Assembly (NCBI RefSeq): GCF_025420585.1
Contig: NZ_JAOEGB010000001.1
Span: 62,001 to 126,000 of the forward strand
Reading direction: 5' to 3'
Source of the DNA: Planotetraspora sp. A-T 1434
Lineage (GTDB): Bacteria > Actinomycetota > Actinomycetes > Streptosporangiales > Streptosporangiaceae
DNA length: 64,000 nt
A program made the translations under genes and the position numbers. Positions 4,277-52,910 of this stretch are shown here, one piece after another. The number at the start of each line of letters is the position of its first letter. Within the stretch, counting starts at the first letter, position 1. Below the pieces are notes generated by a model that did no database searches, was not told where the DNA came from, and worked only from the letters and a program-made list of their open reading frames with translations.

Positions 4277-4350
4277 GTGATCATGCACAGGCTCCCGTGC
4301 CAACGAGCTGACCAGCGCCGATCCTTAACGTGATCATGCATGTGTTTCCG
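4277..4350 (+). repeat. Phased GTGATCATGCA array, locus A (2 forward units)
   Basis: GTGATCATGCA starts at 4277 and 4330, 53 bp apart, followed by the family's CTCCCG/TTTCCG block. It begins 14 bp after the guaB3 stop, between convergent guaB3 and nagA. No clear inverted units are seen. It is a member of the five-locus family also found at about 17.0, 31.6, 42.1 and 52.8 kb. Confidence 0.8.
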
Positions 4351-17041: not shown

Positions 17042-17354
17042 GTGATCATGCAGATGTTCCCGTATGGGCCGTCCTGCCTGGTGCTTTGTCCCACATGATC
17101 ATGCGCAGGTTCCCGTATGGACCGCCCACCTGGCGCTTTGTGCCGCGTGATCATGCACCACGAGGGCGTGCCCGTCGGACGAACGCTGCCTGATCACGAA
17201 GAGTGCCGGCGCTGATCAGACTGTGTGTGGCGGAATCCGTGCATGATCACAATTCGGGAAACCGGACGTGCCTAAGCGTCCCGGGACACCGTGCATGATC
17301 ACGATTCGGGAAACTGGACGTGCCTGAGCTTCCCGGGACACCGTGCATGATCAC
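17042..17354. repeat. Phased GTGATCATGCA array, locus B (3 forward + 3 inverted units)
   Basis: Forward units start at 17042, 17095 (ATGATCATGC) and 17147. Inverted units, TGCATGATCAC, start at 17240, 17292 and 17344. Spacings within each block are 52-53 bp. The block TTCCCG follows each intact forward unit at a fixed distance and is mirrored as CGGGA or GGAAT before the inverted units. The array fills the 435-bp gap between the GMC gene and guaA; nothing else is seen there apart from the guaA promoter region. Confidence 0.88.
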
Positions 17355-31596: not shown

Positions 31597-31884
31597 GTGA
31601 CCATGCACACGTTCCTTGGTGCTGCCGATGAGGTGCGATCCCACTCATCGTGATCATGCGCAGATTCCCGGGGACGCTGTCCGAAGTGGCCTTCCTCGCT
31701 TCGTGATCATGTAGCTGCCAGATCATGAACGACGTAGGTCCAGGTAGCGCCGCCATCGCGGGAATGCGTGCATGGTCTCGAAGGGTGTGTGGCCTGCTTA
31801 CCGTGCCACCGTGGGAGTCTGTGCATGATCACGAGGGGAGTGTGCCGTGGTCCCGGCGTCATCGAGGAACCTCTGCATGATCAC
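31597..31884. repeat. Phased GTGATCATGCA array, locus C (3 forward + 3 inverted units)
   Basis: Forward units start at 31597 (GTGACCATGCA), 31650 and 31703; inverted units start at 31769 (degenerate TGCATGGTCTC), 31822 and 31874. Spacing is 52-53 bp within each block. It begins 16 bp after the sulfotransferase stop and ends 17 bp before the stop of the convergent small membrane-protein gene, filling the whole gap. Confidence 0.87.
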
Positions 31885-41354: not shown

Positions 41355-42101
41355 GTGGGCCGGGTGAATCCTCTGGTGCCGGCACTGGGCGTGCTCGTCG
41401 CCGCCAACGTGATGAACAACCGGATCGCCCCGCGGTGGGCCCCCGTGACGTCGGCCGTCGCCACCGGAGCCCTGGCCGCGATCGCCCGCCGGGGCGGGCT
41501 CACGTGGCCCGAGCTGGGCTTCCGCACGCCCCGGCGCGGCGCCGCGATCGGCGGGACGCTCGCCGCCGGGGTGGCGGCCGGCTACGCCGCGGGAGTCGCC
41601 CTTCCGCGCACCCGGCCCCTTTTCCACGACGAGCGGGCTCTCGCGCTGTCGCGCCGCCGCCTGCTGGAGGAGGCGCTGGTCCAGGTGCCCGCCGGGACCG
41701 TGCTGCTCGAAGAGGTGGCCTTCCGCGGCGTGCTTCCCGCCCTCCTCGGGAGGTCGGTCCCGGCTCGTACGGCTGTCGCCGCGTCGGCCGCCCTCTTCGG
41801 GCTGTGGCACGTGCTGCCCGCCCTCGACATGGCCCGCGCCAACCCCGCACTCGGCCGCCTGACATCGGGCGAGACGGGGGATGGCGTGGAGACCGCTCGT
41901 CTTGTCGCGGGGACCGTGGTGTCGACAGGCATCGCGGGTCTGCTCTTCCACGAGCTTCGCCGTCGTGGCGGTCTCCTTGCCCCGTCCGTGCTGCATGTCG
42001 CCACGAACTCGCTCGGTTACCTCGCCGCCCGCGCCGCCCGGCGGCTCAGCCCCCACCCCCCCGGCCGTGATCATGCAAGGGTTCCCGGCGGGGCCGTCTG
42101 A
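41355..42101 (+). CDS. CPBP family intramembrane metalloprotease
   Basis: 248 residues, polytopic. CPBP/Abi motifs are present in order: TVLLEEVAFRGVLPALL (EExxxR), SAALFGLWHVLPAL (FxxxH) and SVLHVATNSLGYL (HxxxN). Relatives process prenylated proteins or act in stress and bacteriocin immunity. GTG at 41355 follows GGAGGAGGGC. The last ~12 residues (GRDHARVPGGAV) are encoded by the first unit of the phased repeat array, so the original C-terminus has probably been replaced. Confidence 0.88.
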   Translation: MGRVNPLVPALGVLVAANVMNNRIAPRWAPVTSAVATGALAAIARRGGLTWPELGFRTPRRGAAIGGTLAAGVAAGYAAGVALPRTRPLFHDERALALSRRRLLEEALVQVPAGTVLLEEVAFRGVLPALLGRSVPARTAVAASAALFGLWHVLPALDMARANPALGRLTSGETGDGVETARLVAGTVVSTGIAGLLFHELRRRGGLLAPSVLHVATNSLGYLAARAARRLSPHPPGRDHARVPGGAV

Positions 42102-42363
42102 GGTGTGGAGATCCGATGCGTGATCATGCAAGGGTTCCTTCGGGCCGTCTTAGGTGCGGAGATCCGGTACGTGATCATGCACGGCTTCCTACGGGCACCG
42201 CTTGAGGTGCGGAGGTCCGATGCGTGATCATGCACGGGAGGCCTCCGTGCCAGATCGCGGACCGAGCATCCGCAGGTCAGACGTTAATCGGGGAATCTGT
42301 GCATGATCATCAACATGGGGGTGGCAGCTCGTTGGGGCTGCTGGGGAATCCCTGCATGATCAC
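42067..42363. repeat. Phased GTGATCATGCA array, locus D (4 forward + 2 inverted units)
   Basis: Forward units start at 42067, 42120, 42171 and 42224; inverted units at 42300 (TGCATGATCAT) and 42353. Spacings are 51-53 bp. The ~30 bp between forward units are also conserved here (GCCGTCT, AGGTG, GGAGATCCG). The first unit lies inside the 3' end of the CPBP gene and the last ends 18 bp before the convergent permease stop. Confidence 0.88.
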
Positions 42364-52750: not shown

Positions 52751-52910
52751 GTGATCATGCGCGGATTCCTGAACGGGTAGGTTGACCTGCGCATTCGGCC
52801 TTCGTGACCTTGCACACTCTTCCGAGGTGCAAGGTCACGAGCGTTATATGCCCACGTCACCGGCGATGCGCGGGAATCTGTGCATGATCACGCAGGAGGT
52901 GCATGATCAC
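52751..52910. repeat. Phased GTGATCATGCA array, locus E (2 forward + 3 inverted units)
   Basis: Forward units start at 52751 and 52804 (GTGACCTTGCA); inverted units at 52828 (TGCAAGGTCAC), 52881 and 52900. The innermost forward and inverted copies form a perfect 13-bp stem (52803-52815 with 52827-52839, 11-nt loop) although both differ from the consensus at two positions. The array starts 15 bp after the sucD stop and fills the gap before the DUF6350 gene. Confidence 0.85.

Follow-up and report, generated by a model that had tools for sequence, protein, structure and literature searches.

Converging arrays of a short conserved core behind genes in Streptosporangiaceae and other actinobacteria

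Several kinds of short repeat are known from the spaces between bacterial genes. REP/BIME elements bind gyrase, IHF or Pol I. MIRU, also found in an actinobacterium, are intergenic and built of tandem units about 50 bp long, a feature shared with the arrays described here. The ends of Mu/Tn7-like elements carry several non-palindromic transposase sites of about 22 bp, inverted between the two ends. DNA-uptake words occur mostly as single copies, and many also lie inside genes. In Beggiatoaceae, the available part of one study counts 169 direct sets and one indirect set of TAACTGA repeats (PMC4679880).

The family described here was studied from a window of 64 kb, the whole stretch of DNA analysed (C1:62001-126000 of genome G000, a 7.78-Mb draft assembly). 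A published description of it was not found in the open-licence full-text literature, most subscription papers lying outside that scope. Our overall explanation, in which belief and doubt weigh about equally, is that the arrays are oriented rows of docking sites for a putative sequence-specific DNA-binding protein.

Anatomy of the arrays and their place behind genes

In the window, GTGATCATGCA has 59 matches at up to two mismatches against 10.5 expected, and none of 100 shuffles reaches 59. An earlier note on this DNA had counted 25 copies at five intergenic loci; we find 26 in register, 16 of them exact, so its count holds only with variants allowed. The five loci themselves are confirmed, with 2, 7, 6, 6 and 5 in-register copies at A to E:

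4277..4340, + strand: locus A, a single arm with two cores at a 53-bp step, flanked by convergent genes for an IMPDH-domain protein and an amidohydrolase
17042..17354, no single strand: locus B, three forward and four inverted cores (steps of 53 and 52 bp, then 53, 52 and 52 bp)
17042..17062, + strand: example of a core with its second box, GTGATCATGCA followed by TTCCCG (interval positions 15-20)
31597..31884, no single strand: locus C, three cores forward and three inverted, flanked by convergent genes for a sulfotransferase and a PspC/LiaF-like protein
42067..42363, no single strand: locus D, four cores forward and two inverted, flanked by convergent genes for an Rce1-like protease and a UPF0014 protein
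52751..52910, no single strand: locus E, two forward and three inverted cores, between a CoA-binding/CoA-ligase gene and a DUF6350 gene, both forward

Locus B lies between a GMC oxidoreductase gene and guaA, both forward. By our own reading, the CoA-binding/CoA-ligase gene beside locus E is of the succinyl-CoA ligase alpha type. Much of the layout that the note had described is borne out at these loci: cores within a block are 51-53 bp apart, the one exception being the final two inverted units of locus E, which are 19 bp apart, and a forward block is followed by an inverted block at four loci, locus A having a forward block alone.

The family is dispersed, as had been proposed. The assembly holds 335 exact GTGATCATGCA pairs (172 + 163) against 0 for a reversed control. 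Contig C1 (769 kb), joined from its stretches for genome-wide counts, has 303 copies at up to one mismatch, or 323 when in-register two-mismatch copies are added, and 301 of the 323 sit in 65 arrays, of which 36 are two-stranded and 29 one-armed. Three forward and then three inverted cores form the commonest layout (13 arrays). The periodicity and the orientation switch persist across the contig: among 199 same-strand steps shorter than 110 bp, 129 are 53 bp and 44 are 52 bp long, and 33 of the 36 two-stranded arrays run purely forward-then-inverted, the other three having one core out of order each. For the 17 spacings outside 51-54 bp, R at 10.5 bp is 0.50, weak support for helical phase on this contig. 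Even spacing of the arrays along C1 was considered and rejected, the coefficient of variation of the gaps being 0.98 against 0.96 at random.

Arms on C1 have two (26), three (55), four (12) or six (2) cores, and those in two Planotetraspora stretches have three to five. Between the cores lies a second box, TTC at positions 15-17, which reads TTCCCG in the window's genome and TTCGG in Planotetraspora. TTCCCG had been described as conserved at a fixed distance from the core; it, or a variant of it, does follow most cores, but rarely the last core of an arm. Among non-last cores the second box is present behind 153 of 182 on C1, 56 of 59 in P. silvatica and 56 of 62 in P. mira; among last cores the counts are 11 of 95, 1 of 18 and 2 of 19, respectively. 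A third box, ACCnG, is weak on C1 (64 of 182 non-last cores against 6 of 95 last ones) and follows 39 of 59 against 0 of 18 cores in P. silvatica and 40 of 62 against 1 of 19 in P. mira. What repeats is an interval (core, second box, often third box, next core) and not a unit, and arms begin and end in a core.

The arrays keep to the 3' ends of genes. With genes called by a simple purpose-written gene finder and junctions of at least 150 bp as background, enrichment at gene 3' ends is borne out: only 1 of 65 C1 arrays lies in a divergent junction, compared with 62 of 252 background junctions, and the same counts are 0 of 13 against 33 of 101 in P. silvatica and 0 of 13 against 33 of 96 in P. 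mira. From the facing stop codon to the nearest core the median distance is 19 bp, and 83% of 123 such distances are 60 bp or less (three stretches pooled, overlaps counted). The motif is also rarer inside genes than between them, since 13 of 208 exact cores are centred in predicted genes although 85.5% of C1 is coding; scored by the first base instead of the centre, the count becomes 21 of 208, and for one-mismatch copies it is 17 of 95. One-armed C1 arrays in tandem junctions point with the gene direction 13 times and against it 9 times. This lack of a clear preference relative to the flanking genes argues against a polar role in transcription. The sole divergent array of C1 (C1:374339) was followed as a clue to autoregulation and set aside, as it is flanked by genes that we read as a LysR-type regulator and a nitronate monooxygenase-like enzyme, with no obvious reader of the core.

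Distribution across actinobacteria

A family scan with a wider core, GTGATCWTGYA at steps of 52-54 bp, finds matches in 14 of the 341 family genomes, spread over 5 of 68 genera. The bearers are the window's genus, all five Planotetraspora, 5 of 15 Microbispora, both genomes of genus g35, and G128 with two pairs (genus names are inferred); among the 341 genomes the window's genus has no second species. Since 10 of the 15 Microbispora are without arrays by the pattern used, whatever the arrays do would not be a general function. One Planotetraspora, G239, has 90 core pairs compared with 386-731 in its four congeners, a natural case of loss or low spread. Microbispora arrays that were read have three cores per arm, the outer one usually GTGATCTTGYAGTTWGTCGCA, a word found 65 + 59 times in Microbispora G118, where many opposed pairs lie about 235 bp apart. 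The Microbispora outer unit also has GTAG internally.

In a class sample of 394 genomes seven match, five of them outside the family: G371 and G432 (family f30), G373 (f32), and G491 and G579 (f42). The same core recurs in these three other actinobacterial families with different second boxes and spacings. The word after the core is [CG][AG]TCCTGGG in G432, ATCCCGCCACCC in G373, CGTTCGCCCC in G491 and CGCCAGCGCACC or similar in G579, and in G371 locus-specific 11-mers follow the core with a 22-bp period. At one G371 locus (G371:C9:47885-48247) many 22-bp units, each a core and a locus-specific 11-bp word, form a satellite-like run, and other loci of that genome use other words. In G432, 55 of 88 steps measure 32-35 bp (search range 20-50 bp); in G373, among the matches listed, 37 bp is the commonest spacing, and G491 and G579 have mainly spacings of 31-35 and 41-44 bp. 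Over the four actinobacterial families, genomes carry from about ten to several hundred word pairs in arrays at gene ends. Two arrays of G432 and G373 were observed in divergent junctions (L248, L253), and arrays were not found in G388, of the same genus as G432. At several loci of G373 (L252-L257, e.g. L256:7400-8150), the core arms flank a central inverted repeat of about 85 bp, AGAATGCTG ... CAGCATTCT, which could be a terminator or a second repeat family.

These spacings bear on the suggestion that five helical turns place a protein on one face of the DNA. This reading fits Streptosporangiaceae, where 31 of 31 interior intervals are unchanged in length between two species (below), but it is no general rule elsewhere. 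The 37-bp spacing of G373 misfits one-face binding because it is not a whole number of helical turns, and we rejected a strict helical phase beyond Streptosporangiaceae because the off-mode spacings of G432 are without a 10.5-bp phase (R 0.21, p 0.27; steps of 20-50 bp).

Conservation in place and the alternative explanations

P. silvatica and P. mira were compared over 400 kb and 382 kb, respectively, with 96.4% mean identity of the aligned parts. All 11 arrays in shared synteny lie at the same junctions. Unit counts were taken from 31 interior units in the 8 of 11 arrays with an equal unit pattern. There the core differs at 5 of 341 positions (1.5%; 11 positions per core), the TTCG box at 5 of 124, the GACCTGC box at 14 of 248 and the spacers at 109 of 713 (about 15%), while 2963 of 46677 fourfold sites (6.3%) differ between these two species. 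The core is therefore slower than fourfold sites (p = 2.7e-5) and than spacers (p = 2e-14); the boxes are slower than spacers (p 0.005 and 0.002) and not clearly slower than fourfold sites. In addition, the interval length shows no change in 31 units despite 158 substitutions, compared with 70 indels per 498 substitutions in 83 array-free junctions of the same pair; the three array pairs of differing unit number are outside these counts, and two of them show 1-bp interval changes. The base after GTGATCATGC, at position 10 after the core, falls outside the conserved sequence: it differs in 13 of 44 units, always A/G, and the ten bases before it hardly change.

Array spacers diverge more than fourfold sites and more than every class of array-free junction (convergent 177 of 2141, tandem 476 of 11712, divergent 221 of 7379). 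Because the spacers exceed fourfold-site divergence, part of the contrast between core and spacer comes from fast spacers. Transitions outnumber transversions by 115 to 38 at non-core array positions, compared with 1208 to 1755 at fourfold sites; we do not claim spacer hypermutation, since array-free convergent junctions also lean to transitions (5.2% vs 3.0%). In this one species pair, the comparison indicates that the cores are kept by selection at fixed chromosomal places while the spacers drift.

Between genera, turnover is high. Of 189 neighbouring gene pairs comparable between G000 and P. silvatica, 4 have an array in both, 10 in G000 alone, 1 in P. silvatica alone and 174 in neither. 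Of the five P. silvatica arrays whose junctions could be tested, four thus have a counterpart in G000, which has a hypergeometric p of 0.0002 over 163 non-divergent junctions, or 0.009 if only 60 junctions are taken as eligible. Since 10 of 14 testable G000 arrays are absent from P. silvatica, most single arrays appear dispensable over that time. Among the window loci, A, B, D and E could be compared in P. silvatica. It is without an array at the junctions of A, B and D (32 bp separate the genes at the first of these), although an array follows guaA immediately, across that gene from locus B. Its locus E junction, one of the four shared, contains nine detected cores, with a central pair GTGACCATGCA on both sides. 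Within G000, the locus B subfamily was found at 40 places, the query copy plus 39 more that are 74-88% identical to it along some or all of its 276 bp (of 321 candidates, 40 were scored), among them C1:79040-79303 at 79% identity. We conclude from these 40 places that arrays have spread by copying in the lineage of G000. Several subfamily copies share an upstream GGGAA...TTCC inverted repeat (C1:638640-638725 and C1:351990-352075), which may be a hairpin terminator in its own right or may belong to the unit that was copied.

The strongest rival to a selected docking array is a miniature mobile element of MITE or REPIN-like type, in which the arms would be transposase-binding ends, gene ends would be the sites of least-harm insertion, and no host function would exist. 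Homologous copies of one subfamily at 40 different sites, junctions with and without an array between genera, and opposed arms, including the outer units about 235 bp apart in one Microbispora, all agree with it. REPs, too, avoid divergent junctions as a rule, as far as the available part of PMC3733652 goes. Moreover, 1 of 15 inter-array stretches holds a 67-aa HTH_17 (excisionase-type) protein; this single case, L120:2569-2772, lies between opposed arrays of a Planotetraspora contig in a stretch without another strong gene. The other 14 stretches contain ordinary or unassigned genes by our reading, one with a restriction-endonuclease-like domain, and an autonomous element was rejected, as no transposase cargo was seen in the 15 stretches read, from which eight proteins were scanned against Pfam. 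No subfamily copy with its halves far apart was found among the 40 scored places, and none of four empty and filled junctions read by eye has a clear target-site duplication. A search for the Y1 transposase of the RAYT class (PF01797, E 0.001) in 40 genomes, 19 with and 21 without arrays, did not detect it in 13 of the 19 bearers, G000 included, and found it in 11 of the 21 array-free genomes. We therefore rejected a REPIN/RAYT system, because Y1 presence (6 of 19 bearers, 11 of 21 non-bearers) does not track the arrays. Origins in other mobile DNA were also set aside: viral contigs gave 0 matches, and plasmid searches with one array of G432 and one of Microbispora hit 3 and 1 records, respectively, where the short matches span 7-12% of the array used as query. 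A mobile element would explain the spread and the opposed arms, not the conservation of cores at fixed places, which evolve more slowly than fourfold sites in P. silvatica and P. mira; mobility alone is no explanation for this. We regard it as unlikely in its pure form, at something near one chance in a few. Both may hold, in that arrays spread by a mobile process and were retained for a host function.

A second rival places the function in RNA: opposed cores would pair in the transcript, and the hairpin would terminate transcription from both sides. In its favour, folding of the two-stranded arrays is much stronger than that of shuffles (n=36, mean z -5.8), because opposed cores pair. Central hairpins are common. 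At locus E the central opposed pair GTGACCTTGCA forms one, and between genera both of its sides are different. The stem reaches weakly past the cores in Planotetraspora (0.44 paired vs 0.35 permuted, n=14), and two Microbispora centres are long palindromes (L226, L228). By contrast, the stem stops at the cores in G000 (0.30 paired vs 0.36 permuted, n=31), the one-armed arrays (29 of 65) are barely more structured than shuffles (mean z -0.8) and are not followed by an excess of inverted cores, and single units have z near 0: with mean z values of 0.12, -0.16 and -0.41 in three sets, interior units fold no better than shuffled sequence, and the top covarying position pairs within the unit are non-complementary. 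RNA pairing also leaves the conserved spacing and boxes unexplained, and the window has 0 matches to curated RNA families at the gathering threshold. As a general principle the hairpin is rejected for units and one-armed arrays, and it may contribute at some centres; the RNA element as a whole seems improbable to us. The palindromic centres of G118 (L226:10363-10598 and L228:7720-7954) are locus-specific, with about 26-28 bp per side and one mismatch in L228. They look as if made by inverted duplication or templated mutation, the latter being a process that can also produce central palindromes, and other Microbispora centres are less regular.

A third possibility, which we judge very improbable but which supplies the sole concrete lead to the identity of the protein, is that ArgR or one of its relatives recognises the core as it would an ARG box, with the arrays gathering or titrating ArgR. 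ArgR is widespread, whereas the arrays are rare. The available part of the S. coelicolor ARG-box table, drawn from ArgR-shifted fragments, lists CTCTCCGTGATCATGCACCC (AB.SCO5864_0, 267 bp before a start codon), and this box holds CGTGATCATGCAC, the whole core (PMC5839063). In addition, the same part describes ArgR as hexameric (PMC5839063), and three plus three cores is the commonest two-armed layout here. The box, however, was assigned within its fragment by a model, an effect on expression was not seen, and ARG boxes are imperfect palindromes of at most 20 nt, single or contiguous, again in the portion of the source available (PMC5839063). Array cores lie 22-53 bp apart, behind genes, and have an invariant left half CGTGA.

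The weakest candidate, a genome-wide self-recognition word of the DNA-uptake kind, for which biased uptake or repair would keep the core and drive copies into gene ends in lineage dialects, accords with a conserved core with a lineage-specific second half, intergenic opposed pairs and patchy occurrence, but nearly all copies lie in tandem arrays with constrained intervals and few in genes (the 13 of 208 above), and we give it scarcely any credence.

A putative docking array and its relation to known systems

The earlier note had proposed a nucleoid- or terminator-type element, or sites for a protein that binds one face of the helix. This interpretation is supported in part: a DNA-level element at gene 3' ends fits best, because divergent junctions are avoided, units are without a hairpin, and cores are conserved in place in one species pair. 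We consider a selected protein-docking array probable. The existence of the protein is suggested by selection on the cores and by the word common to several families, and docking from core to core by the conserved core and interval, the boxes lying mainly within intervals, the converging arms and the placement behind stop codons. The putative protein would contact two adjacent cores and the boxes between them, and neighbours would bind cooperatively. In Streptosporangiaceae the five-turn interval would put neighbouring proteins on one face of the helix. Less surely, such a protein-DNA block at gene 3' ends might act as a boundary for transcription, supercoiling or chromosome folding. This role is a guess from array position alone, and, granted a docking array, a boundary or termination function could fall either way. 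New arrays have spread within the genome by some form of copying, at least in the window's own species.

More tentatively, and with more doubt than confidence, one protein family might use one domain to read the fixed CGTGATCATGCA and a second domain to read an 8-11 bp dialect specific to the lineage, oligomerise from core to core and mark 3'-end boundaries. If true, the arrays would belong to a conserved but patchily inherited DNA-organising system of Actinomycetes, comparable to a written address code, whose word, dialect and spacing each evolve on their own. We expect a single, findable protein to read the word. Its discovery would reveal the way in which these high-GC genomes mark gene ends, be it for termination, supercoil control or chromosome folding, and the array-free Microbispora species offer natural controls.

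Among described systems, Streptomyces ARG boxes resemble the arrays in the one box from an ArgR-shifted fragment that contains the core; in the part of the source available, they are listed mostly by start-codon distance, with no arrays behind genes (PMC5839063). The TAACTGA repeats likewise form many intergenic short direct-repeat sets with a proposed regulatory role, but, as far as the available part of their description goes, differ in motif and lineage (PMC4679880). CRISPR shares the order of repeat, constant-length spacer and repeat, ending in a repeat. Unlike CRISPR, the family has an 11-bp repeat and many tiny opposed arrays, array spacers share boxes, and orthologous array spacers differ by point changes, with none replaced in the pair compared; ten genes flanking the window loci have Pfam domains other than cas. 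Compared with MIRU, the arrays keep only the 11-bp core and short boxes, while their spacers differ and their arms are opposed. They depart from Mu/Tn7-like ends in that no transposase cargo was seen in the 15 stretches, half elements are common, and cores are conserved in place in the pair tested.

REPIN-RAYT systems come closer, with conserved ends, a variable interior, long persistence in one lineage and intragenomic subfamilies; the arrays differ from them in the Y1 transposase, undetected in 13 of 19 bearers as noted, and in usually having at least three sites per arm. A REP-type GTAG/CGTC tag was not seen at array unit ends. Like REP/BIME elements, the arrays have hundreds of extragenic copies, mostly behind genes and seldom in divergent junctions, with opposite orientations grouped. 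Unlike them, array units are not palindromic hairpins, the repeats are direct and at a fixed interval, and two-stranded arrays nearly always converge. On the boundary reading, the arrays would be a DNA-level counterpart of BIMEs.
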